Assembly (NCBI RefSeq): GCF_900129615.1
Contig: NZ_FQWI01000008.1
Location: 62,001 to 126,000 of the forward strand
DNA from: Pectobacterium carotovorum
GTDB lineage: Bacteria > Pseudomonadota > Gammaproteobacteria > Enterobacterales > Enterobacteriaceae
Direction of reading: 5' to 3'
Length of the DNA stretch: 64,000 nt
Positions 13,199 through 25,503 of the stretch are shown here, one piece after another. The notes under the pieces are model-generated. The model searched no databases and had not been told where the DNA came from. It saw only the letters and a program-made list of their open reading frames with translations. Every line of letters starts with the position of its first letter. Within the stretch, counting starts at the first letter, position 1. Position numbers and translations under genes: made by a program.

Positions 13199-13530
13199 TC
13201 TCTTTCTCCAAAGGCGTAATAGCGCCGACGCTGCTATTGTTCAGAAACATACGAATTACTGACAGTCGTTTCTGGTATACATTCTAGGCAAAATTGTTAC
13301 AAAGCATATTAAAATTCGTGTAATCAATCATTTCCTGTGCAGTCAGGCATAAAATAATCAGCGATTAATGGCGATTGCGGTTAGCGAAGATTGTCGTTTA
13401 CGAAGATTATAGTAACGCAGTCGCCAATAAAAAGACGCGGTAGCAGCAAAAGCAGGAGAAAAGCGAAGAGAGAGAACGTTGCCGCCTGAATTCAGGGCGA
13501 CAACGTGAAGTGGTTAACGCATCGCAGTGA
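13199..13530. other. Intergenic region upstream of ompR
   Basis: 332 bases with no credible gene. It holds the ompR promoter area (AT-rich, about 13290-13370) and, near the siderophore operon end, one hairpin (listed separately). This is the left junction of the accessory block, since greB would be expected here from E. coli gene order. Confidence 0.6.
13476..13506 (-). terminator. Hairpin at the end of the siderophore operon
   Basis: A long stem centred on GAATTC (outer arms ACGTTG / CAACGT, inner TGAA / TTCA, one bulged base) 25 nt after the stop of the ParB-like gene. On the minus strand the tail is CTCTCTCTTCGCTTTTCTCC, pyrimidine-rich but not a clean T-run, so it is a moderate terminator candidate. 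Confidence 0.5.
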
Positions 13531-13941
13531 TTAGCGCATAAGCTCATCCAGCACAACACGTACCGACGGCAGCGCGGGCTGGAAAAAATGGCGCGTGGTC
13601 TTGTAGGGAAACAGGCTCTTTTCCGCCACAATCGTCTTCATAATTAGACTCTTGCAAAAAGGCTGCCCGGTCTTCCAATGGTAAACGGATACGCGGGGGT
13701 CGTCATAGTCGAGCAGCGCACAAGGGATATGCTTTAACCCCAGCTCGGTGGCCGCGCGTAACCGGTGATTGCCGTCCATAATAATCCCCGTCTCTTTTTC
13801 TATCGGTATTGGTGTCGTCCAGCAGCCACAGCGACAAATATCCTCCATCAAACATTCCACGTTCGACATATCGACATTTTCAGAGGGAAGCAGGAACTGC
13901 ACGGGCGTAAGAGCAATCTGGTAAGTCATACTTTCAAACAC
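13531..13941 (-). CDS. ParB/Srx-fold protein, SbnI-like putative free serine kinase
   Basis: 136 residues with a ParB-type nuclease/sulfiredoxin fold: an N-terminal strand TYQIALTPVQFLLPSE, then IIMDGNHRLRAATELG (the G-x-HRL nucleotide-binding loop, about 55-70). It is much shorter than plasmid ParB and has no helix-turn-helix. In Staphylococcus, SbnI of the staphyloferrin B locus has this fold and makes O-phospho-L-serine, the substrate of SbnA; archaeal SerK is similar. A SbnA-like enzyme four genes upstream in the same operon supports that role here by inference. The GTG at 13941 is chosen because a perfect AGGAGG lies 6 nt before it; an in-frame ATG at 13929 is the alternative. It is the last gene of the operon. 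Confidence 0.65.
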   Translation of the reverse strand: MFESMTYQIALTPVQFLLPSENVDMSNVECLMEDICRCGCWTTPIPIEKETGIIMDGNHRLRAATELGLKHIPCALLDYDDPRVSVYHWKTGQPFCKSLIMKTIVAEKSLFPYKTTRHFFQPALPSVRVVLDELMR

Positions 13942-14009
13942 GCTCTACCTCCTGACGTAAACAATCTCGTATCGCTCCGGCCAGTGCACCGGAGCCGACT
14001 GTGAGTGAC

Positions 14010-15170
14010 TTACTGCGCAAGACTGACGAAATAGCCCGGTTGATAGTCAACCGGTAGAAACTGCTGATGAAGCTGGCGGAAGGTGTCATCCGCGTTGAGA
14101 TCGCGGAATAAGTCTGGGTGGAACCACTCGGCCAGTTGTTGAATGGCGATAAAATCATACGGGCCGTTGTAAAACTGATGCCAGATGGCATGAAATGCGC
14201 GCTTCTGCTTGGCGATGCTGTTGGTGTAGGCGGGACGCCCCAGAAACCATTCGAGACGCTTGCGCCCTTCCGTCATATCCTGCCCCGGCCCCAAACCAAT
14301 CCAGCGTCCGCCGGGCACGAAGGCCTCAAAGTTGCCGCTGGTGATCACCACAATTTCCGGGTTTTCCACAATCACCTGTTCAGGATGCATCTGCATAAAG
14401 GTGCTCGGCGCATTCTTCGCCGCGACGTTATCGCCACCGGCCAGTTGCACGAATTTCCCGAAGTTATCCGGGCCGAACGTCAAGCAGCATTCATCGGTAT
14501 AGCCCCCCAGCCGTTCAATGAACACGCGCGGTGAGCGCGGCTTTTTCGCCGCCAGCACGTCGGAAACGCGTTTTAGCTGCGCCTCGCGGAATGCGAGAAA
14601 CGCTTCGGCACGCGCTTCCTGATTAAACAGCTTGCCGAACAGGCGCATGGTCGGCGCGGTGTTTTCCAACGGGTGATAACGAAAATCGACATACACAATC
14701 GGAATGCCGACGCTGTCCAATATCCGATCGTAGCCCGCATCGACAATCGCCCGCTGCGCCTCAATGTTCATAATGATGACGTCCGGCTTCAGCGACACCG
14801 CCTGCTCTACGTCAAACGTGCCCTTTTCCGTGCCGTCAAACGTCGGGATTTTCGTCAGCTGAGGAAAACGATCGCGATACTGGTGCCACGTTGCCGGATC
14901 GGACTGAATCAGATCGCGCCGCCAGGCGACAATCCTTTTCGCCGGATCTTCGCGATCGAGCATCGCGACCAGATAAAGCTGACGCCCTTCTCCCAGCATG
15001 ACGCGCTGCACCGGCGTGTTGACTCTCACTTCACGCCCCAACACATCCTTGATGACGGTTGAGGTTTGCGCGGTTTGTTCGGCCTGCCCTGCCAGCGGCG
15101 ACAGGCCTACCATCAACAGCGCACTCAGCAATAACCGACGGCAATATTGCCGCGTCCAACGATTACACAT
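14010..15170 (-). CDS. Periplasmic ferric-siderophore binding protein
   Basis: About 386 residues with a basic N terminus and hydrophobic signal (RRLLLSALLMVGLSPLAGQA), then a class III periplasmic binding domain of the FepB/BtuF type (VIKDVLGREVRVNTPVQRVML is the typical opening, followed by KPDVIIMN). It should deliver a ferric chelate to an inner-membrane ABC importer, but no permease or ATPase gene lies in the cluster. The frame is open from 15203; the ATG at 15170 is preferred because it directly precedes the signal peptide. It then overlaps the MFS gene end by 8 bp, a sign of translational coupling. Confidence 0.8.
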   Translation of the reverse strand: MCNRWTRQYCRRLLLSALLMVGLSPLAGQAEQTAQTSTVIKDVLGREVRVNTPVQRVMLGEGRQLYLVAMLDREDPAKRIVAWRRDLIQSDPATWHQYRDRFPQLTKIPTFDGTEKGTFDVEQAVSLKPDVIIMNIEAQRAIVDAGYDRILDSVGIPIVYVDFRYHPLENTAPTMRLFGKLFNQEARAEAFLAFREAQLKRVSDVLAAKKPRSPRVFIERLGGYTDECCLTFGPDNFGKFVQLAGGDNVAAKNAPSTFMQMHPEQVIVENPEIVVITSGNFEAFVPGGRWIGLGPGQDMTEGRKRLEWFLGRPAYTNSIAKQKRAFHAIWHQFYNGPYDFIAIQQLAEWFHPDLFRDLNADDTFRQLHQQFLPVDYQPGYFVSLAQ

Positions 15171-16413
15171 TTTCGATATTTCCCTTCGTCGAGAGAGAGT
15201 CATGTTTTTCCGCCTGTATCCGCAGGCGTCGTAGCAGCATCAACGAGACCAGGAAGGTCACCAGATAAGCGGCACCAACGCAGAAGAACAGCGAACGTAG
15301 TCCGGGGGAGTAGAGCACCACTCCGCCCAAAGAAATGCCCAGAATTGAGGCAAACTGGCTGACGCTTTGCGCCACACCGAGTATGTAACCCTGCTGCCCG
15401 GCTCCAGCCGCACGGGAAATCAGCGCCATCAGAACCGGCGTCGTCGCCCCCAGCAGCACGCCCCACAGGAAGTACAGCGGGATGAAAATCGCAATATTCA
15501 AGATCGTGGCAGCCGTCAATGTCACGATGGCGCAGGCCAGCATCACCACACACAGACGGCTCAGCGTCTGCGACAGCGAAAGGTTTTCAAAATAGCGCGC
15601 CCACAGCGACGCAGAGACAATCACGCCCGTCGCCTGCAAGCCATAACACAGCCCGATAATCCACTTATCCACCTGAAAGAAGCCGTCCATATAGAGGGAA
15701 AACGGCGTTTGCGGGATCATTCGGCTGGTCAGCAACAGGCCGGAAATCAGCAGCAAACCGGGAATCGGCGACAGCGCCCAAAGCCGTCTGCGGGGAATGT
15801 CTTTCGCCTGCGCGTCCGCAGGCGGAGCAGCAGAAGCCTCAGGGGCAACATGCGGCAAAAATAGCGCTACGGTGATGCCACACAGCGCGCACAGGATCGC
15901 CGCACTCAGGTTGATCCAGAAGAAGTTCAGGTAATCGAGGATCAGCCCGCCGACAATCGCCCCCAGCAGCGATCCCACGTTGGTGGAGACCTGAAGCCAG
16001 GCGAACAGCCGCGTGCGCTGTAACGGGCTGACCACCGCGACGCCATAGGCCTGCGCGGGTGCGATATAGCCCGCACAGGCACCCTGAATAAAACGCAGCG
16101 CGACTATCGTCCAGATATCATTTGCCCATGCCAGCCCGAGCTGGGTTAACGCCAGCCCAAACAGCGCGCGGATCATCATGGCTTTGTTGCCCAGCCGATC
16201 GCCCATCCGTCCCCAGAAGGCGCTGGTCAGCATAATGCCCAGCATCGGCCCGACATACACGGCAATCCCCGCGATGCTCAGTTCCGCACCAGACGACATA
16301 CTTTCCAGATGCAGCGGCCAAAACGGCCCGCTCATCTCCATCGCCCCCATCGCGACCAGCTGTACGACAAACATAAAGTGGATGATGAACGCCACCTGCC
16401 CGCTCAAGCGCAT
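15163..16413 (-). CDS. MFS transporter, probable siderophore exporter
   Basis: 416 residues with about 12 predicted membrane helices and a charged central loop (about 195-215). The MFS signature GRMGDRLGNKAMM lies between helices 2 and 3. Its place between siderophore biosynthesis and uptake genes suggests export of the finished siderophore, like SbnD or EntS in other systems. The transport substrate is inferred from context. It is coupled to the downstream binding-protein gene. Confidence 0.8.
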   Translation of the reverse strand: MRLSGQVAFIIHFMFVVQLVAMGAMEMSGPFWPLHLESMSSGAELSIAGIAVYVGPMLGIMLTSAFWGRMGDRLGNKAMMIRALFGLALTQLGLAWANDIWTIVALRFIQGACAGYIAPAQAYGVAVVSPLQRTRLFAWLQVSTNVGSLLGAIVGGLILDYLNFFWINLSAAILCALCGITVALFLPHVAPEASAAPPADAQAKDIPRRRLWALSPIPGLLLISGLLLTSRMIPQTPFSLYMDGFFQVDKWIIGLCYGLQATGVIVSASLWARYFENLSLSQTLSRLCVVMLACAIVTLTAATILNIAIFIPLYFLWGVLLGATTPVLMALISRAAGAGQQGYILGVAQSVSQFASILGISLGGVVLYSPGLRSLFFCVGAAYLVTFLVSLMLLRRLRIQAEKHDSLSTKGNIENV

Positions 16414-16473
16414 GCGTCAGCTCCTTCTGATTCCACGGCGTCACCCGCCCTCATTCCCGCTACGGTCATCACG

Positions 16474-17643
16474 TCAACCCATCCCATCCGTCAGCCAGTG
16501 CGGCGGGAAATAGCCGGGGCGATCCTGCGTAGACACGCCCATGTAATCGCTGCACCATCGGTAAACTTCCTCAATGTATGGCACGCTAACGGCCAGATTC
16601 TCCGCAATCGTCACCAGCAGGCTCAGGCCGTAGGCAATATCCTCCTGAAACACCCGATGCTGCGTATCAAACACGTATCCGCCAGCATCATACTTTCGCA
16701 GCGGCAGGCCGATGCCGTGGTAAGCCTGATTGGTTCGCAGTACGGAGAGCATCGTGTGCGCATCGGCAATCTGATCGCCATAGGCATCGATAATCTCCTG
16801 TTTGAGCGGCAGCACGGAATCCAGCCGCACGCCAAGCCGCGTCTCCAGCGCCGCACACAGTTGCTGGTTCTCTTCGTCCATGCGCTCCAGATAATAGGCG
16901 CCGAGTTCCGGGCAATCATTCCACCAGCATAGCGGCTGCGAGAACGGCCTGGCATGCCATTGTCCGTAGGGACCAATCAGGCCATAAATCACCGCACTGT
17001 GCATAATCGGGTTACCCGGCGTCAGCGTGATCTCCAGATAATCCGGCAATAACACCACGGGCGCGGAATAGAGCCGTTGCAGCAGCACCATTAGTGCCTG
17101 CTGGCTCGCAGCCGTTTCGCGCCGATGCGTAGCGACATACAGCGTGGCCTTTTCGCCGCCCATTTTGATCGACTGGCCTGGCAGTAAATCAAACGCAATA
17201 TGCGCGACGTCCTTCATTCCCCAAATCACCGCGTTTGGACGAGCGGCCAGCTCACGTTCGGCCAGCCAGTCAAAGCCGCAAAAACCGGGGATCGCGCCAA
17301 CGTAAACCGGCTTGCCGACGGGCAAATGGGGAACGATCCGCGCCAGAAGATCGGCGCGGAAGTTGGCGGGAACGGTGATGATAACCACATCGGCATCGCG
17401 GCAGGCTTCCGCCGGGTCGCAGGTCACACAGTCCGGCGTGGCCGTCAGCGTCTCGCCATCTGGCAGCAGCGCGTGTAGCCGTTTACCGTGCTGCTGATAG
17501 GCTTCCGGCAGACGAGGATGACTACCCAGTAACGTCACCTTGACGTCTGGCCGTTGTTTAAACAGCACCGTGGTGAGATGGCCGGTCTTGCCGGCCCCGC
17601 AAATCACCACGTTAAGCGGCTGCCCGCTTAGCGTTTCAGCCAT
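16474..17643 (-). CDS. Opine/octopine-type NAD(P)-dependent dehydrogenase
   Basis: 389 residues. The N terminus is a Rossmann domain (VVICGAGKTGHLTTVLF, a GxGxxG variant, residues 12-28), and the C-terminal half is an octopine-dehydrogenase domain with the NPIMH segment where the catalytic histidine of this family lies. Family members join or split a 2-keto acid and an amino acid through reductive N-alkylation. In staphyloferrin B synthesis the SbnA product (an N-linked glutamate adduct of diaminopropionate) must be oxidatively split to L-2,3-diaminopropionate and 2-oxoglutarate, normally by SbnB, an ornithine-cyclodeaminase-fold enzyme. Running in reverse, an opine dehydrogenase could do the same. 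That assignment is inference from chemistry and position, 11 nt after the SbnA-like gene. Confidence 0.75.
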   Translation of the reverse strand: MAETLSGQPLNVVICGAGKTGHLTTVLFKQRPDVKVTLLGSHPRLPEAYQQHGKRLHALLPDGETLTATPDCVTCDPAEACRDADVVIITVPANFRADLLARIVPHLPVGKPVYVGAIPGFCGFDWLAERELAARPNAVIWGMKDVAHIAFDLLPGQSIKMGGEKATLYVATHRRETAASQQALMVLLQRLYSAPVVLLPDYLEITLTPGNPIMHSAVIYGLIGPYGQWHARPFSQPLCWWNDCPELGAYYLERMDEENQQLCAALETRLGVRLDSVLPLKQEIIDAYGDQIADAHTMLSVLRTNQAYHGIGLPLRKYDAGGYVFDTQHRVFQEDIAYGLSLLVTIAENLAVSVPYIEEVYRWCSDYMGVSTQDRPGYFPPHWLTDGMG

Positions 17644-17653
17644 CCTTAACTCC

Positions 17654-18670
17654 TTAGCTTGCCTGCTCCAGAGAAATCGCGTTGCCCAGCCAGCGATCCA
17701 GATCGTGCCACACGCCGCTATCTATCAGGTTACGCGCCGCCAGCCACTCTTCGTTAAACACCGTGTGCAGGTACTTTTCACCGCCGTCGGCAATCGCCAG
17801 CACCACGTTGCCGCCGATGCGATCCTGATAGATCAGCTCCAGCGCTTTATAGATCACCCCGCCCGTCGAACCGCCGACCAGCAGACCGTAGTGCCGTGCG
17901 ATATAGCGTGCCGTTTCAAACGCCTGCGTATCCGACACCTGCTCACCACAGTCGATGCAGCTGTAATCCAGCACTAGCCCCACGGTATCTCCCGCAGGCG
18001 TACCGGTGCCGGACTGATAATAAGGTTTGCCGGGGTGACCGAAGACAATAGAGCCAACCGGTTCAACCGCAATGGTCGTGATATCCGGGTTATGGACTTT
18101 GAGGCCGTGTGAAATGCCAGTCATCGATCCGCCAGTGCCCACGCAGCCGACAAACGCATCGATCTTGCCAATCTGGCTAAACAGCTCGCGGACAAAATCG
18201 GCATAGCCGCCCGCATTCGCCGCGTTATCCGACTGGTTCATAAACACCGCGCCGGGTATTTCCTGCGCCAGCTGTGCCGCCATGCGCTGGCGTTCCACCA
18301 CCGCAACCTCATCTTCGCCGTAGTCGCCGGAGACGTAGCGAATTTCCGCGCCGAGCGCGCGCATGATGGCAATTTTGTCCTGCGCCGCGTGATGATCGAC
18401 CACGGCGATAAAGCGCAGGCCGTATTCAATCGACGCCAGCGCCAGCCCGATACCGGTATTCCCCGAGGACGATTCGACAATGGTGCCGCCGGGACGGATT
18501 TTGCCTGACTTCAGTCCAGCGACAATCATGTTTCGCGCCATGCGATCCTTCATGCTGCCGCCGGGATTGTTCTTCTCCACTTTTAAAAACAAACGCGTAT
18601 CCCTATAAGGGACAGGAATTTGTATAACGGGTGTATTACCAATCAAATCAGTTACTTTATTCAGGATCAT
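17654..18670 (-). CDS. SbnA-like PLP synthase (cysteine synthase fold)
   Basis: 338-residue fold-type II PLP enzyme. The PLP lysine is K41 in NNPGGSMKDR, the substrate loop is ESSSGNTGIGLA, and the phosphate-binding loop is VGTGGSMTG. It resembles SbnA, which condenses O-phosphoserine with glutamate to begin L-2,3-diaminopropionate synthesis, more than housekeeping CysK; the siderophore operon context decides. The start is taken at the ATG at 18670, 7 nt after GGAG, rather than 18694 where the frame opens. It is followed closely by the opine dehydrogenase gene. Confidence 0.78.
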   Translation of the reverse strand: MILNKVTDLIGNTPVIQIPVPYRDTRLFLKVEKNNPGGSMKDRMARNMIVAGLKSGKIRPGGTIVESSSGNTGIGLALASIEYGLRFIAVVDHHAAQDKIAIMRALGAEIRYVSGDYGEDEVAVVERQRMAAQLAQEIPGAVFMNQSDNAANAGGYADFVRELFSQIGKIDAFVGCVGTGGSMTGISHGLKVHNPDITTIAVEPVGSIVFGHPGKPYYQSGTGTPAGDTVGLVLDYSCIDCGEQVSDTQAFETARYIARHYGLLVGGSTGGVIYKALELIYQDRIGGNVVLAIADGGEKYLHTVFNEEWLAARNLIDSGVWHDLDRWLGNAISLEQAS

Positions 18671-18683
18671 GGTTCTGCTCCAT

Positions 18684-20087
18684 TCAGTTATCACTGGAAA
18701 AAATCAGCTCACCTTTCTTACCTTTGAACGCACACAGGCGCGCAGGCAGCGGATGCCGATGAAACGCGTTTTCCAGCAGGTCCATCTGGTATCCCGCCGT
18801 ATTCGCGTAAATCAGTAAATCGCCAGGCTGCGGCACGGTTCGAAAATGAATCAATCGGTTCGTAATGACATCGTCGTCCAGACAGCTGTGTCCGGCGATC
18901 CAGGCTTTACCCGGCGTCGGACGTGTGTCTTTTTTGACGGAAAAAACATGCAGAGGATCAATCAAAAACTCAGAGTTAAACCAGGTTTCACACGCGCTGA
19001 AGCTGCTGCCTTCGACAAACACGACGTGGTTGCCATCCGGCTGGCGGCGCGTGCGCGTGACGCGAAACACGGTAATCGCACTTTGGTCGGCTAGACTGCG
19101 TCCCGGCTCAATCGCCAGAATCAGGCCGTACTGTTTTAGTACGTCCGCTACATGGTTCTGCCCAATTGAAGCTGACAGGAAGGCGTCAAGATAGTCGGCA
19201 GCCGAACGCTCACCGCCGTACGGATAAAACGAGGTCGGCACCTGACCGTGGCGATAATCCGCCCCATTCTGCTTCGCTAAATACTCCTGATAGTGTGAAG
19301 CCGGAAGATATTGAATCGGCAATCCCCCGCCGATATCAATAATGGCGGGCTGCAATCCCTTTGACCGCGCCCGCTCCAGTAATGGCAACACCTCAGCCAA
19401 TGCGGCTACGCGAGTATCAGGCTCATAACCGCCTAGATGAAAATGGAAGCCTTCCAGATGAAGTGCATCCAGTCTGGTACTCAACGTTTCCAGGCAGATA
19501 GCAATCTCATCGGCCAGCATGCCAAACCGGCTGTTTTGTGCGAACGACGGGCGATAGCGCAGCAGAACTCGCACCGGCTCCGTCACACGTAACAACTCAG
19601 CCAGCGCGAGCACCTCATCGAACTCTTCCGGCGAATCCAGCACGATAAGCGCGCGGTGATGAACCAGTTCCGTCAGGAACTCGCGCGTTTTGGCTGGGCC
19701 GGTGGCGCACAGCCGCGCGCCGTCGCAGCCTGCCCGCAGCGCATCTTTCAGCTCCTGTAAACTGGAAACATCCACACCAACGCCAGCGTTAACCGCCGCC
19801 TGTACCAGCCCCGGTGATTTATTCACCTTCGCGCCGTAGTACAGGCGACAGTCCACATCGTGACGCTGCAACACCGTTCGCAATGCCGCGATATTGTTGG
19901 CCACGGTGTGCGGCCAGACAATATTCAGCGGCGACCCATACTGCTCAACCAGCCATGACAGCCTTTGCGGCGAGTTGAAAAGAAACTGCTCAATCTCACT
20001 ATCCAGATAAGGTGTCAGTCTCTCAGGCCAGTGGGCCTGCGCGACAGGGAGGGAAGACACTGCGGCAAAGCTAAACAGGTTGCTCAT
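18684..20087 (-). CDS. PLP-dependent decarboxylase, SbnH-like
   Basis: 467-residue fold-type III (alanine racemase/diaminopimelate decarboxylase fold) enzyme. The PLP lysine is K87 in YYGAKVNKSP; the glycine-rich phosphate site is IDIGGGLPIQY; the C-terminal domain carries SSFSACE and the conserved YANTAGYQMD. In staphyloferrin B and related NIS pathways such enzymes remove the carboxylate of a citryl-diaminopropionate intermediate, leaving an ethylenediamine unit. A strong AGGAGAT ribosome-binding site precedes the ATG. Family is certain; substrate is inferred from neighbours. Confidence 0.8.
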   Translation of the reverse strand: MSNLFSFAAVSSLPVAQAHWPERLTPYLDSEIEQFLFNSPQRLSWLVEQYGSPLNIVWPHTVANNIAALRTVLQRHDVDCRLYYGAKVNKSPGLVQAAVNAGVGVDVSSLQELKDALRAGCDGARLCATGPAKTREFLTELVHHRALIVLDSPEEFDEVLALAELLRVTEPVRVLLRYRPSFAQNSRFGMLADEIAICLETLSTRLDALHLEGFHFHLGGYEPDTRVAALAEVLPLLERARSKGLQPAIIDIGGGLPIQYLPASHYQEYLAKQNGADYRHGQVPTSFYPYGGERSAADYLDAFLSASIGQNHVADVLKQYGLILAIEPGRSLADQSAITVFRVTRTRRQPDGNHVVFVEGSSFSACETWFNSEFLIDPLHVFSVKKDTRPTPGKAWIAGHSCLDDDVITNRLIHFRTVPQPGDLLIYANTAGYQMDLLENAFHRHPLPARLCAFKGKKGELIFSSDN

Positions 20088-20128
20088 CGCTATCTCCTTA
20101 ACGTTCGGTTCCTGAAAAATGCCTATCC

Positions 20129-22318
20129 TTAGAAATCAACCGCGACGGACAGCATCAGCGTCCGCGGCGTTCCTTGCGATACCGTGCTGAACGACGTCAC
20201 GCCAGACCAGTAGTTGCGGTCAAAGGCGTTAAGCACATCGGCACGGAACGTGGTGGGTGCGTTAGAGATTCGTGTCTTGTAACGCGCGCCGAAATCAACG
20301 GTGGTCCAGGAAGGAATAGACTGAGTATTGATGGTGTTGACGTTCTGCTTCCCGTTATGAGTGACGTTGGCATTGAGCGTCAGATCGCGCAGAAACGGCA
20401 GGTCATATTCCACGCCAGCGTTAGCCTGAAAACGCGACGTACCCGGTGCGCGCTTGCCCTGTGCCCCCGGCGTCACGCTTTTGGTCAGCTCGGCATCCAA
20501 CAGCATCACGCCACCGGTCAGACGCAGATCTTCCAGCGGTGAACCGACGACATCCAGCTCGATACCCCGATTGCGCTGCTCGTTGGCATCAACAAACGCG
20601 CCGTTAACCAGCGCGCCACTCGGCTTGGTGATCTGGAAAACGCTCAGCGTGGAGATCGTCCCCAGTGCATCCACTTTCACGCCGGCCTCGTACTGTTTGC
20701 TCTTATACGGCGACAATACCTGCCCCGCATTGCTCGCATTCGCAGGCGCAATATCCCCTTTGCTCAGCCCCTCAATGTAGTTGGCATAGAGTGAGACGTG
20801 CTGCCAGGGCTTAACCACGACGCCCGCCATCGGCGTTATCGCATTTTTGTCGTAGGACGATGATGGCGCACTATTGCCGGGAACAAAGTTATCCGACTTG
20901 ATCTGCTGATAACGCAGACCGCCCGTCACTTGCAGCGCGTCGTTCCAGAAGCCAAGCGTATCCGCTAATGCGATACCCGATAGCGCAGTGGAAGAACGTT
21001 TGCTAATCGTTGCAGGTGCGGCGACATTCTGTGCAGGTGAAGAAACTGGATTGTAAATATTCGAGTTAATCGTTGTTCCGCTGCCGATACCGGTCGCCTG
21101 ACGATCGCGGTAGTAGCTGGTCTGTGCCGACAGCTTGTGCGTCACCGAGCCGGTTTCCACATCCGCGCGAACACCGGTCGCCAGCGTGTAGCGACTGGTA
21201 GTAAAGCGATAATTGCCCACAGCGGAACTCACATCGCCATTGTTATTCGTGACCTGCGGCACCTGCTCTGACAACCGGCTCACGTGTGCGCTGGAACCAC
21301 CCAGATCGGTAAACCAGGTGACGTTATCCGCCAAATCGTATTCGGTATGCAGCAGCACCGACTGATCTTTGGAGTGCCAGAATCCCCACGGCTGGGAAAT
21401 GTTGGTGTTGCCGTCCGGTGCATCGGGCACGGTCACACCAGCGGCAAACGAATAAGGGCGCGACGGCGCACGCGTTTTCAGGTGCTGGGTAATGAGATCC
21501 AGCGTGGCGCGGAAACGCTCTGAGGAGAAATCCAGCCCGAGCGAGCCGACCTGTGTACGTTTATCGCTGCCATCCCACACCGTGTCGCCGTAGCCGTAAT
21601 TGCCGTTAAAACGCACGCCGAGCAGATTATTATTGTCCAGCGCATAGACGCGGGAGATATCCGCATGCTGTGTGAGTTGGGAATCAGACTGCCAGCTGGT
21701 GGTGAGACGGGTCAGATTGCCTACGGTGGTCGGACGTTTGGTGACGGCATTAATCACGCCACCCACGCTGCTGTTAGGCGACAGCCCATACAACAGCGCC
21801 GATGGTCCTTTCAGCACTTCTACTCGTTCGATGTAGTCGGTCATCAGCTGATAGTTGGGCGCAACACCATAGACGCCGTTCATGGCGATATCGCTAAGGT
21901 TGCCCTCATTAAGTGGAAAACCTCGGATGTAGTAAGAATCCAGCAGACCGCCCTGAGAACTGCTCACCCGCACCGAGGCGTCATGCGCGACCACCTGCCC
22001 CAGCGTCTGGGCCTGTTTATTTTCAATAAACGATGAGGTCATGTTGCTGACGTTAAACGGCGTATCCATAACGTCCTTTTTACCCAGCAGCCCGGTACTG
22101 GACGACCGCGCCGACATGCCGCCCGCGACCAGTCCCTGCACGGCTTCCGCGTCTTTGGCTTCCACCACGATCGTGGAATCATCACGCTCGCCCGTAGCAG
22201 CCTGCGCGGGTATCGCGATGCCGCCTAGCACAGCCGTTACGGCGATGGCTAACGCAGAGGGAATAGGAAAACGAGTCTTCCCAGTAGTAGGTGGAGTGAA
22301 GTTCTTCCTGGCGTTCAT
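20129..22318 (-). CDS. TonB-dependent outer-membrane siderophore receptor
   Basis: About 729 residues: signal peptide (SALAIAVTAVLGGIAIPAQAA), TonB-box-like DDSTIVVEA just after it, a plug domain with YYIRGFP and the ERVEVLKGPSALLYG motif, and a 22-strand barrel ending in a terminal aromatic residue (VAVDF), the BAM recognition signal. It belongs to the FhuE/FoxA-like siderophore receptor group. It probably imports the ferric form of the locus's own siderophore. The frame is open from a TTG at 22339, but the ATG at 22318 directly before NARKNF gives a normal signal peptide. Confidence 0.9.
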   Translation of the reverse strand: MNARKNFTPPTTGKTRFPIPSALAIAVTAVLGGIAIPAQAATGERDDSTIVVEAKDAEAVQGLVAGGMSARSSSTGLLGKKDVMDTPFNVSNMTSSFIENKQAQTLGQVVAHDASVRVSSSQGGLLDSYYIRGFPLNEGNLSDIAMNGVYGVAPNYQLMTDYIERVEVLKGPSALLYGLSPNSSVGGVINAVTKRPTTVGNLTRLTTSWQSDSQLTQHADISRVYALDNNNLLGVRFNGNYGYGDTVWDGSDKRTQVGSLGLDFSSERFRATLDLITQHLKTRAPSRPYSFAAGVTVPDAPDGNTNISQPWGFWHSKDQSVLLHTEYDLADNVTWFTDLGGSSAHVSRLSEQVPQVTNNNGDVSSAVGNYRFTTSRYTLATGVRADVETGSVTHKLSAQTSYYRDRQATGIGSGTTINSNIYNPVSSPAQNVAAPATISKRSSTALSGIALADTLGFWNDALQVTGGLRYQQIKSDNFVPGNSAPSSSYDKNAITPMAGVVVKPWQHVSLYANYIEGLSKGDIAPANASNAGQVLSPYKSKQYEAGVKVDALGTISTLSVFQITKPSGALVNGAFVDANEQRNRGIELDVVGSPLEDLRLTGGVMLLDAELTKSVTPGAQGKRAPGTSRFQANAGVEYDLPFLRDLTLNANVTHNGKQNVNTINTQSIPSWTTVDFGARYKTRISNAPTTFRADVLNAFDRNYWSGVTSFSTVSQGTPRTLMLSVAVDF

Positions 22319-22400
22319 CAACAAAGTTATCCATCTCAAAATGAGGAGTGAAAAAGATGCTCCCGTTTTTCAGCCGGTAAGGCAGGAGCATCGCCATACA

Positions 22401-24302
22401 TCACGGCTCGACGCGAGTTTTCTCCCCTTCCGTGAGGAAAGGATTGCTCAGGCCGTGCTGAATTCGGTAGTCGCGATATTCCTGGATGTGCATTCGCAGC
22501 AGCGAACGCGTATACCAGGGCTGGGTCAGAAACATGTCGCGTTCGGTCTGCCATAGCTCGCCATCAACGCGCGACTTCACCGCATCAAACGCTGCGGCCG
22601 TTTCTTCTTTCATCACCCGCCACAACCGCGCATCGGCAAAGCCGTATTCCGCACTCAGCGCCAGCGCCAATTCGTGCAGATGGCTTACAAAACAGGCATC
22701 GACGACAAACATCCGCACGGGTTCGATGTCGTCTTCAAAGACCGTAGGCAGAATGCCGGGCCAGACGTAGGGTTGCAGATGATGGCCACGCTGACGCAGC
22801 AGGGGCGCGTAGGTGCGCCCATCACCGAAATCGCGGATTAATAGCCCCTGCGCGACGCCTTCGGGCGAAAAGAGGATCTGGCTGTTCTGCTGATGCGCTT
22901 CCAGCCCGATGCCGTACAGCAGATAGATAGCGATGACAGGGCGGGTAACCGCACGAACGTATTGACGGAACCACGCCTCTGCGCCAAGCCCGGACAGCGT
23001 TACCAGCTCGGTGAACAGCGGCTGGTCGCGGTGCGGCAGCGCCGTAAACAGCGTCGCGACGGTCACAGGCAGCGCGCCGTCGGTACGTTCATAAACGCGG
23101 GCATCGCGGAAGACGACAGAAAGATGCTTACCCGGCGCATCATCCTGATGAACCGCGTGCTTGTAGTGGAACGCGGTCTCTTCGCGGAAAAACGCCAGCC
23201 GCTGTTCGAACCCGCCTTCCTGCGCCAGAATCGCTTCGATAATGGTGCTGATACGTGGCCCCATCTGGATGGATTTCGCCTGTAGGCTGCGCATTTCGCT
23301 GGTCATCCAGATGGCGACGGGCAATTTGATGAAGGGAGAAGAAGATGGCTCAACGGGCAATACGGTACGGAACGACATCCCCGGCAGCGTGATGAGATCC
23401 GGGCCGTCGGTGAGCAGAATCCCTTCGGCGATCTCATCCGCGTAGTGGGATTTCACCCAGTTTTCCAGATGCCAGCTATGGATGGGCAGCGGGAGCCACT
23501 GTGTCTCATCCAGCCCTTGCTGATTCAGGCGCTGCTTCCAGTCCAGCCAGAGCGCAGGAAATGCCTGAGCAAACCACGGGTGAAAATCATCAACGTGCGG
23601 CATGCATTCCACATACGCCATATCACGGCGCAGCGCGGTAATACGCAACGGCACGCGGGCGTTGAATTCGGGTGACAGTTGCTGGACGTCTTCATCGCTC
23701 AGGCCGGGGCGGGATTTCCAGGTCGGGTAGTAAGGGTGGCCTTCCAGCGATCCCCACTGATCGAGAAACATGGCGGCATCGCGAATGCTTAGCTGCCGAC
23801 GCAGCCACGGCGTGAAAGCGTTCTGCCCATCCTGCTGCATGGCATCAGCCACCTCAGCACGCCACTGGCACCGATAGCGCCGGGCGTTGGTATCATTACG
23901 GATGCTGTTACCGACATCTTTTTTCAGGCCATTAATGCCGCTGTCTTCAGGATGGAAATCAAAACTATCGCGAAGTAAATCAATCAATCGCTCGTGGCTG
24001 GTAACGGGAAAAGACGCGCCATCTGAATTAATATGATAAATATTTCCATTATTAATATAAGTGTTTGCCGGTGATGGGGAAATATCGTCGAATTTCAATA
24101 TACCTTTGCCACCCTGCAACGTCAGCGTTGCTTTCCGGGAATTATCCTTAATAAATATCAGGTCATTTTTATTCAAAATCCCTTCTGCAAAAAAACAGCG
24201 AATCAATCGCCTTAGCGCATTTTTATTTGAATAATCAGAAAGAAAATCATCTACATCCTGATGTATATCCCTGTGTTTAACATCGTCAGCCTTGATATTC
24301 AT
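22401..24302 (-). CDS. NIS siderophore synthetase (IucA/IucC family)
   Basis: 633 residues. NIS synthetases adenylate a carboxylate of citrate (or a derivative) and pass it to an amine. Motifs: HPYYPTWKSRPG (about 195-207), LPIHSWHLENW, SFRTVLPV with the following SS-FIKLPV, HQQNSQILF and RDFGDGRTY, covering the ATP and substrate sites and the FhuF-like C-terminal part. It is the only NIS synthetase in the cluster, whereas staphyloferrin B needs three. The ATG at 24302 is 5 nt after AGGAG. Its first 100 codons are AT-rich compared with the rest. It is the first gene of the minus-strand operon, with the promoter in the region shared with the CitE-like gene. Confidence 0.9.
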   Translation of the reverse strand: MNIKADDVKHRDIHQDVDDFLSDYSNKNALRRLIRCFFAEGILNKNDLIFIKDNSRKATLTLQGGKGILKFDDISPSPANTYINNGNIYHINSDGASFPVTSHERLIDLLRDSFDFHPEDSGINGLKKDVGNSIRNDTNARRYRCQWRAEVADAMQQDGQNAFTPWLRRQLSIRDAAMFLDQWGSLEGHPYYPTWKSRPGLSDEDVQQLSPEFNARVPLRITALRRDMAYVECMPHVDDFHPWFAQAFPALWLDWKQRLNQQGLDETQWLPLPIHSWHLENWVKSHYADEIAEGILLTDGPDLITLPGMSFRTVLPVEPSSSPFIKLPVAIWMTSEMRSLQAKSIQMGPRISTIIEAILAQEGGFEQRLAFFREETAFHYKHAVHQDDAPGKHLSVVFRDARVYERTDGALPVTVATLFTALPHRDQPLFTELVTLSGLGAEAWFRQYVRAVTRPVIAIYLLYGIGLEAHQQNSQILFSPEGVAQGLLIRDFGDGRTYAPLLRQRGHHLQPYVWPGILPTVFEDDIEPVRMFVVDACFVSHLHELALALSAEYGFADARLWRVMKEETAAAFDAVKSRVDGELWQTERDMFLTQPWYTRSLLRMHIQEYRDYRIQHGLSNPFLTEGEKTRVEP

Positions 24303-24464
24303 AACCACTCCTCATACCGATAAAACAAGTAAAAACCGATTGCAGTAACGTATAAAAGGGTGTCATTAAGTCTCGGGTTAACACGTCCCGAAAATTAATA
24401 AAAATGTCGTAATGGATAGATTGAAAAATAATGAACGGAAAGCTAGCATATTAACCACGACAAT

Positions 24465-24483
24465 GTAAATAGGTATCATTCTT
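24465..24483. promoter_or_regulatory. Candidate Fur box between the divergent siderophore transcripts
   Basis: The minus-strand reading AAGAATGATACCTATTTAC matches 12 of 19 positions of the Fur consensus, including a full AATGATA. It lies in the AT-rich 250-bp region between the synthetase and CitE-like genes, where iron control of both would be expected. Confidence 0.5.
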
Positions 24484-24552
24484 ATTCGCAATTAATTAGT
24501 TACATTTTAATAAAATATCTTTTAATCAATGAATTAACAGAAGGAGAGCAGC

Positions 24553-25434
24553 ATGGAACACGCTAAAACCTATCTCTTTGTGCCTGGTAATGCGCCCCAC
24601 CGCTTTCAACAAGCCGTCTGCTGCGGTGCCGATGCCGTGATATTTTATTTAGAAGATGCTGTTCATCCTGATGAAAAAAACCAGGCTAGAGAAAATATTA
24701 TCCAGTGGGATAAAAACGATACGGCCGTCTCTGAAATAAATTGCAAAAGATATATACGTTTAAACAAATTTGGTTCAATGGAATTCAGTGAGGATATTGA
24801 GTTTCTGAATAAACTTAATAATAAAGAAAAATTAAGAAATAACGTCCCATCCAAACATAAAACAGCCAAATGGGAAATTGTTTTACCTAAAATAGAATCC
24901 GCAGAAATGCTGCATGACGCGCGGAAAATGATAAATCGTAATAGCTCGGAAGCGGTTAATATTATAGCGATAATTGAAACCGCGCAGGGGTTGCATCATG
25001 CGGAAGAGATTTGTGCCGCAGGGGTAGAAAGAGTGGCATTTGGCTCATTAGATTTCTCGCTCGATATGCATTGCGATCAATCCCTGTACGCCTTGCTGTA
25101 TGCCAGAAGCCGCATTGTATTAGCGTCCAGACTGGCCGACTTGCCGCCGCCAATAGATTGCGTCAATCCTGACTTCACGCATCACGATCGGGTGTTAGCT
25201 GACGCACTACATGCACGCTCGCTCGGTTTCTCAGCCAAGCTCTGTATCCATCCTTCGCAGATCGATGCCGTTCAGCAGGCATTCGCGACGGATCGCAGCA
25301 AAATAGACTGGGCAAAGCAGGTTCTAAAAGCGGCCGAACACAGCTACGCTTTCCAGATAAACGGCGAGATGGTGGATTTACCCGTGATTGAGCAGGCCAG
25401 GCAGCTGTTGCGGGCACAAAATGTAGATGACTAA
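24553..25434 (+). CDS. CitE-like aldolase/lyase (HpcH/HpaI superfamily) of the siderophore locus
   Basis: 293-residue TIM-barrel protein of the citrate-lyase-beta group: KTYLFVPGNAPHRF (start of the barrel), ADAVIFYLEDAV with the metal-binding acidic residues, IIAIIETAQG, and GFSAKLCIHPSQI. Staphylococcal SbnG, in the related HpcH/HpaI family, is a citrate synthase dedicated to siderophore synthesis, so this protein may supply citrate or a citrate-like acid here; that is inference. A strong AAGGAGAG ribosome-binding site precedes the ATG. The first 450 bp are clearly AT-rich and the rest is not. It is transcribed divergently from the synthetase operon. Confidence 0.7.
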   Translation: MEHAKTYLFVPGNAPHRFQQAVCCGADAVIFYLEDAVHPDEKNQARENIIQWDKNDTAVSEINCKRYIRLNKFGSMEFSEDIEFLNKLNNKEKLRNNVPSKHKTAKWEIVLPKIESAEMLHDARKMINRNSSEAVNIIAIIETAQGLHHAEEICAAGVERVAFGSLDFSLDMHCDQSLYALLYARSRIVLASRLADLPPPIDCVNPDFTHHDRVLADALHARSLGFSAKLCIHPSQIDAVQQAFATDRSKIDWAKQVLKAAEHSYAFQINGEMVDLPVIEQARQLLRAQNVDD

Positions 25435-25479
25435 ACCTGTTTTCAGGAGAAGTCGCGCTTTTTACGTCAGCGATGAATC

Positions 25480-25499
25480 CGCCCGGCATAAGCCGGGCG
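25480..25499. terminator. Hairpin between the CitE-like gene and greB
   Basis: A perfect 8-bp GC-rich stem (CGCCCGGC / GCCGGGCG) with an ATAA loop between the convergent genes. No T-run follows on either strand, so it may be a transcript-end hairpin rather than a classical terminator. Confidence 0.5.
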
Positions 25500-25503
25500 A
25501 CGT

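Follow-up and report, generated by a model that had tools for sequence, protein, structure and literature searches.

The nine-gene locus and its described relatives

A described relative of the siderophore locus treated here is the proteobactin locus pbtABCDEFGHI of Proteus mirabilis (L023, L077). The locus comprises nine genes at positions 13531-25434 of a 64,000-nucleotide stretch of DNA from Pectobacterium carotovorum, which is called the window in the following, and it is flanked by ompR and greB (bracket at 13199-25503). In P. mirabilis pbt is repressed by iron, and iron chelation was lost only in an nrp pbt double mutant (PMC11026637). The same review refers to an uncharacterized Pectobacterium siderophore system, noted in 2010, as the closest homologue of PbtA, and its sections on pbt give no structure of proteobactin (PMC11026637). 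The window was found to agree with pbt in all nine genes and in their order and orientation, including a divergent gene for a CitE-like enzyme, and the five proteins that were compared are 51-79% identical between the two species. In Proteus, genes for an ATP-binding cassette (ABC) permease and an ATPase adjoin pbt, whereas the ompR-greB stretch of the window is devoid of them. By the gene content and order tested, the locus is a member of the pbt gene family. It is argued below that the locus very likely directs the synthesis and uptake of an aminopolycarboxylate siderophore of the rhizobactin class.

The structure of rhizobactin has been known since 1985. Its building blocks are lysine, ethylenediamine, alanine, and malate, and rhizobactin B contains citramalic acid instead of malic acid (PMC7676072). 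Both compounds were identified in Pseudomonas sp. FEN, with rhizobactin B being more abundant; Ensifer meliloti DM4 is also a rhizobactin strain, and the rhizobactin described originally, the one with malate, comes from S. meliloti (PMC7676072). A list in the Pseudomonas corrugata genome paper includes "rhizobactin siderophores" and names no genes at that place (PMC5679145), and the accessible part of the FEN genome announcement names no cluster. No assignment of the genes treated here to rhizobactin was found in the openly licensed papers searched, and the link between this gene family and rhizobactin appears to be new. The third relative is found in S. fredii NGR234, in which the core genes of the window follow one another in the interval from nopX to nopL. 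By their position these genes were identified as y4yB-y4yA-y4xP-y4xO-y4xN-y4xM, the role of which has been called enigmatic (PMC3973906). In contrast to the window, no match to the CitE-like enzyme, the receptor, or the binding protein was detected within 9 kb of them. The rhizobactin reading would thus join three loose ends, i.e., rhizobactin, for which no genes were found in the openly licensed papers searched, the proteobactin locus, for which these papers yielded no product structure, and the enigmatic y4yB-y4xM genes, and each of them could be tested by one predicted mass.

In a preliminary description, the region had been recognized as a siderophore locus with eight parts. The open reading frames and their families bear this out, and all eight parts are present at the expected place with profile matches to the expected families. 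However, a ninth gene, which encodes an opine dehydrogenase, had been omitted, and therefore the chemistry of the locus must be read differently. The features are as follows (PLP, pyridoxal phosphate; MFS, major facilitator superfamily; NIS, nonribosomal peptide synthetase-independent siderophore):

13531-13941, minus strand: small free-serine-kinase-like protein (mini SerK/SbnI), PbtH-like; weak SerK match (40 bits, cut-off 380)
14010-15203, minus strand: periplasmic iron-siderophore binding protein, PbtG-like (PF01497, E 7e-12)
15163-16413, minus strand: MFS transporter, PbtF-like (PF07690; best named NCBIfam match FslB, 183.6 bits, cut-off 600)
16474-17643, minus strand: octopine/opine dehydrogenase, PbtE-like (PF02317, E 3.8e-30, 105 bits, cut-off 30)
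17654-18694, minus strand: SbnA-like PLP beta-replacement synthase (PALP), PbtD-like (PF00291, E 8.4e-66; TIGR03945, 238 bits, cut-off 350)
18684-20087, minus strand: PLP decarboxylase of the PbtC/Y4yA family (PF02784, E 3.1e-23; best NCBIfam match LysA, below its cut-off)
20129-22339, minus strand: TonB-dependent siderophore receptor, PbtB-like (TIGR01783, 333 bits, above the cut-off of 223.5)
22401-24308, minus strand: IucA/IucC NIS synthetase of the PbtA/Y4xN clade (PF04183 and PF06276)
24459-24477, plus strand: possible Fur box (13/19), no better than shuffled sequences (83 of 500 equal)
24553-25434, plus strand: divergent CitE-like enzyme, PbtI-like and related to RipC (PF03328; RipC match 147-148 bits, cut-off 375)

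Comparison with further systems narrowed the possible products. According to the known roles of sbnA-I, staphyloferrin B biosynthesis shares with the window an SbnA-like synthase, a PLP decarboxylase, and an SbnI-like kinase. However, it involves three synthetases, whereas the window locus has one, plus an opine dehydrogenase, and this synthetase is the single PF04183 match in the whole window genome. Therefore, staphyloferrin B is excluded, in agreement with the preliminary description. In addition, no member of the SbnB family (PF02423, ornithine cyclodeaminase) is encoded in the locus, and the only match in the genome lies on another contig. Achromobactin, aerobactin, and enterobactin, which had also been set aside before, are not encoded by the locus either. 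With the rhizoferrin (fsl) system the likeness is limited to the best matches, FslA for the synthetase and FslB for the MFS protein, all of which are below the curated cut-offs (FslA 269 of 1000 bits, FslC 29 of 500 bits), and the SbnA-like protein and the opine dehydrogenase are extra in the window. Rhizobactin 1021 (rhbABCDEF), a hydroxamate and a different molecule, has only the name and the NIS class in common. The closest named synthetase, from Pectobacterium sp. CFBP8739 (L029), is 96% identical to that of the window. A match to AcsD was confined to the C-terminal part of AcsD. An IucA/IucC-family gene of Pectobacterium atrosepticum has been reported among temperature-responsive loci (PMC8125463).

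The opine dehydrogenase and the putative rhizobactin pathway

The dehydrogenase gene is situated between the genes for the MFS protein and the SbnA-like protein, and its product matched octopine dehydrogenase in the PDB with an E value of 9.3e-21. Three residues, H215, R330, and D335, are invariant in all 85 dehydrogenases and correspond in the alignment to the catalytic residues of octopine dehydrogenase from Pecten, H212, R324, and D329. Two of the latter, His212 and Arg324, are named in PMC2924402. With a domain score above the cut-off and retention of these His, Arg, and Asp residues, the protein belongs to the octopine type (PF02317). An AlphaFold model was obtained with a predicted local distance difference test score (pLDDT) of 84.4, and in a Foldseek search octopine dehydrogenase ranked first, followed by N-(1-D-carboxylethyl)-L-norvaline dehydrogenase (CENDH), while staphylopine-type enzymes ranked lower. 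The typical set of opine metallophores, a nicotianamine-like synthase and a staphylopine-type dehydrogenase, was not represented among the nine locus proteins. In five loci (L029, L033, L010, L152, and L153) the dehydrogenase gene, which has 389 codons, is interrupted in frame at codon 386 by a stop, which costs the last few residues only.

The remaining enzymes were analyzed in the same way. The small "ParB-like" protein was modeled with a pLDDT of 90.6, and its best Foldseek matches were SerK (5x0b, E 2.3e-9) and SbnI (6nr6, E 3.4e-7). It aligned to SerK in two pieces, the second of them weak, as though it lacked the central portion of SerK. E21, which corresponds to E30 of SerK, is kept in 81 of 82 proteins, and D56, H59, and R60 are kept in all 82. 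Judging from the modeled fold, the protein is predicted to make O-phospho-L-serine, so that the supply of phosphoserine that had been envisaged earlier is plausible. The SbnA-type and decarboxylase chemistry of the preliminary description is also supported by the protein families. Lys49 of the PLP motif is kept in 85 of 85 SbnA-like proteins. In the CitE-like enzyme E142, D167, and D275 are invariant (34/34). Its best curated match, below the cut-off of the model, was RipC, a lyase of itaconate degradation that cleaves citramalyl-CoA.

From these families the following pathway can be envisaged. The small serine kinase would provide O-phospho-L-serine, which the SbnA-like enzyme would convert to a PLP-bound aminoacrylate, and the N2 amine of L-lysine, the presumed nucleophile, would then be added. 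Removal of the serine-derived carboxylate by the decarboxylase would lead to N2-(2-aminoethyl)lysine and would thereby create the ethylenediamine bridge. The opine dehydrogenase would condense the new amine with pyruvate and reduce the product, yielding the 1-carboxyethyl ("alanine") end. The NIS synthetase would activate citramalate (or malate) and join it to N6 of the lysine, while the CitE-like enzyme may use pyruvate and acetyl-CoA to form citramalate. The siderophore would be carried by the receptor, the binding protein, and the MFS protein. Thus, each bond of rhizobactin has a matching enzyme family in the locus, with beta-replacement, decarboxylation, reductive alkylation with pyruvate, and acylation as the presumed reactions. 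If true, this would be a siderophore pathway that unites opine and NIS chemistry.

The genome of the rhizobactin producer Pseudomonas sp. FEN allowed a comparison with a known product. FEN (L052) carries all nine genes in one place, and this locus also holds the single PF04183 match that a search of the FEN draft assembly yielded. Adding up the presumed reactions of the enzyme families (lysine and dehydroalanine joined, CO2 lost, pyruvate added reductively, and the acid attached) gave C15H27N3O8 with malate ([M+H]+ 378.1871) and C16H29N3O8 with citramalate ([M+H]+ 392.2027). The compounds of FEN had been measured at 378.1866 and 392.2020, and their formulas are identical to the derived ones (PMC7676072). 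FEN thus shares the whole gene set of the window, and its product has the formula that the enzymes predict. In addition, the window proteins are closer to those of FEN than the FEN proteins are to those of an S. meliloti locus (L021), with identities of 59 versus 51% for the synthetase, 61 versus 55% for the opine dehydrogenase, 74 versus 68% for the SbnA-like protein, and 53 versus 50% for the decarboxylase.

Taken together, the rhizobactin reading is based on gene content, gene order, protein families, predicted folds, conserved residues, the presence of the genes in FEN, the match of the formulas, and the pattern of gene loss that is described below. From this basis we infer the product, the reactions, and their order, and we regard a rhizobactin-class siderophore as very likely. 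The CitE-like enzyme suits a supply of citramalate, and therefore the acid is probably citramalate and the product rhizobactin B, a claim held with less confidence than that of the class. Similar, moderate confidence applies to the wider view, namely that an SbnA-type step, the decarboxylase, the opine dehydrogenase, and one NIS synthetase constitute the rhizobactin pathway, that proteobactin is rhizobactin B, that y4yB-y4xM of S. fredii lead to rhizobactin, and that gain or loss of the CitE-like enzyme decides whether citramalate or malate forms the acyl end, with differences even from one Pectobacterium species to another.

Distribution of the gene set, and its loss within Pectobacterium

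In a sample across the class, the dehydrogenase was found at E 1e-30 in one of 369 genomes, namely the window genome. Because this sampling yielded the window genome alone, named homologues were sought in plasmids and genome contigs. An alignment of eight dehydrogenases (Pectobacterium, Serratia, Proteus, and five alphaproteobacteria) served as query, and the collection that was scanned holds one genome per species. Of the 94 stretches that were confirmed, the best 80 were taken as genome loci, eight of them shorter than 21 kb and cut by contig ends, while the short loci L001-L020 are outside the counts. Genes were counted as tblastn matches at E 1e-5, which do not prove that they are intact. 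The gene set, for which a search had been suggested earlier, was recovered in FEN and Proteus, and its core in Sinorhizobium, among others. A synthetase match was present on the same strand as the dehydrogenase, at most 6.7 kb away from start to start, in all 80 loci, and thus the gene set is not due to chance. Matches to the decarboxylase, the SbnA-like protein, and the MFS protein were detected in 79 loci each, to the receptor in 75, to the kinase-like protein in 74, and to the binding protein in 68. The sole locus without decarboxylase and SbnA-like matches, L088, begins at a contig edge. The CitE-like enzyme was matched in 33 loci, and the full set of nine in 31. CitE matches occurred in 22 of 22 Pseudomonas loci, in 10 of 11 loci of Enterobacterales (the match in L057 is partial), and in one of the 47 others, a Bosea.

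In the plasmid collection, matches to the dehydrogenase were obtained in 46 records, of which 22 are from Sinorhizobium. The plasmids pSymA and pSymB of S. meliloti 1021 are part of the collection and were not among the 46. The genes for the kinase-like protein, decarboxylase, SbnA-like protein, dehydrogenase, synthetase, and MFS protein lie in a row on the S. meliloti USDA1021 plasmid accessoryA and on pNGR234a, and no CitE match was found at these two loci. A core that lacks CitE is thus present in S. meliloti, the species from which rhizobactin with malate was first described. A dehydrogenase of Rhizobium sp. 007 (L028, 36% identity) was dropped from the counts as it is distant and the other locus genes are not beside it.

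Some loci showed additional features. A class-V PLP enzyme (L052 13855-15519; L022 12787-13971) was found in clusters from Pseudomonas, Serratia, and Arsenophonus and in some others; it is SufS/EgtE-like with some similarity to PvdN and has no role in the proposed pathway. Two Arsenophonus insect symbionts (L042 and L057) retain the core cluster; in one of them citE gave no match, and in the other the match is partial. On a Serratia marcescens plasmid (L022 6094-8250), an IS903B element overlaps the gene annotated as the decarboxylase at its 5' end, and the protein is shorter than that of the window.

Within the genus Pectobacterium, the synthetase was matched in 17 of 25 genomes, and the dehydrogenase in the same 17. 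Of the eight genomes without the synthetase, five have ompR at most 1.5 kb from greB, and neither citE nor the kinase gene was matched there. The other three have retained a decayed citE beside greB. For ten of the 25 genomes, the regions were retrieved. In G001 (L150), G014 (L149), and G015 (L151), synthetase, decarboxylase, SbnA-like protein, dehydrogenase, CitE-like enzyme, and kinase are absent or represented by remnants. In these three genomes the genes for receptor, MFS protein, and binding protein are full-length and free of stops, and the ratios of non-synonymous to synonymous substitutions (dN/dS) between G001 and G015 are 0.05, 0.13, and 0.08, respectively. As the six genes were lost together, they appear to form one biosynthetic unit, and the three retained ones appear to serve uptake. 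G001 and G015 have a receptor-MFS junction in common (109 bases, 85%), and therefore the loss of biosynthesis is probably older than their split. From their gene content, the three genomes are candidates for siderophore users that no longer produce the compound. The rhizobactin reading, if true, would explain a shared iron resource of soft-rot bacteria, including some users that apparently do not produce it. The MFS protein had been taken for an exporter. It is an MFS protein with the exporter FslB as best match, but the score is far below the FslB cut-off and the gene is kept in relatives without biosynthesis. This retention speaks in favor of a function in uptake or of a second function, although it is not decisive.

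A different pattern was found in G012, G013, and G020 (L145, L146, and L147). In these genomes citE is truncated or broken, the four core enzymes are intact, and no kinase match was found in the regions. From the remaining genes, malate rhizobactin would be predicted as their product. The dehydrogenase is broken in G018, and G021 has breaks in the synthetase, the receptor, and the kinase; hence presence of the locus does not always equal production.

Alternative products and iron regulation

Several observations weigh against rhizobactin or against citramalate as its acid. Only one producer with a genome sequence links the gene set to rhizobactin, and in this strain the order of the genes differs from that of the window. 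The class-V PLP enzyme, which is present in 24 of the 80 loci including FEN, is absent from the window stretch. In the FEN study, the nuclear magnetic resonance table, recorded for a compound that had been partly purified, is limited to its citramalate and alanine moieties, while the lysine and ethylenediamine parts are known from tandem mass spectrometry and the formula (PMC7676072). The FEN authors pointed instead to homologues of rhbAB of rhizobactin 1021, a structurally different molecule (PMC7676072). With respect to the acid, the window genome has a second RipC/CitE-like gene on another contig (C15, 72197-73033), which scored 155 bits against RipC compared to 147 bits for the locus gene, and the CitE-like enzyme could make malate or another acid. 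On a synthetase tree of 86 rows, built by a quick method, three changes account for the presence of CitE; the pattern is clear, but few events underlie it and thus the link of the CitE-like enzyme with citramalate. Finally, the Fur-like site of the window is poor, as the list above indicates.

The alternatives were weighed against these data. An analogue of rhizobactin with one block changed, either citrate for citramalate/malate or another diamino acid for lysine, is unlikely. The synthetase is distantly related to IucC and AsbB, both of which use citrate, and at 59% identity to the FEN enzyme the specificity may have shifted; the citrate analogue would have a computed mass of 436.193. However, the FEN proteins resemble those of the window more than those of S. 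meliloti L021, and the CitE-like protein is related to RipC.

The rhizoferrin-like products of the preliminary description, citryl-ethylenediamine or a bis-citryl diamine, would require that SbnB is replaced. The SbnA-like enzyme would use glutamate to form N-(1-amino-1-carboxyl-2-ethyl)-glutamic acid (ACEGA), the opine dehydrogenase running in reverse would free 2,3-diaminopropionate, the synthetase would add citrate, and trimming by the decarboxylase would give citryl- or bis-citryl-ethylenediamine. ACEGA is opine-like, so that the reverse reaction is conceivable. SbnA and FslA are the best NCBIfam matches of the PALP protein and the synthetase, both below the cut-offs, and the location of the only ornithine-cyclodeaminase-family gene on another contig also fits this scheme. 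However, it leaves the opine dehydrogenase without a job other than that of an SbnB stand-in, and the closest folds of this enzyme are octopine dehydrogenase and CENDH. Moreover, FEN has the same genes, with its only PF04183 match among them, and its products contain lysine, alanine, and malate or citramalate. The scheme is therefore improbable, and the cluster, as far as can be deduced, rather matches a characterized siderophore with other building blocks, i.e., rhizobactin/rhizobactin B. That proteobactin is a distinct hydroxycarboxylate siderophore with oxaloacetate, which the window would make as well, is hardly credible: the gene order is that of pbt and PbtI is said to make oxaloacetate, the likely substrate of PbtA, but the review names the opine dehydrogenase and a PLP enzyme without a role, and its part on pbt gives no structure (PMC11026637).

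Fur-like sites were scored against the Fur consensus. In seven loci of Pectobacterium and Samsonia the sites reached 12-14 of 19 positions. The sites of the Serratia, Providencia, and Proteus loci and of three Pseudomonas loci stood out from shuffled sequences, with 0 of 200 shuffles being as good in Serratia, 1 of 200 in FEN, and 2 of 200 in Providencia.

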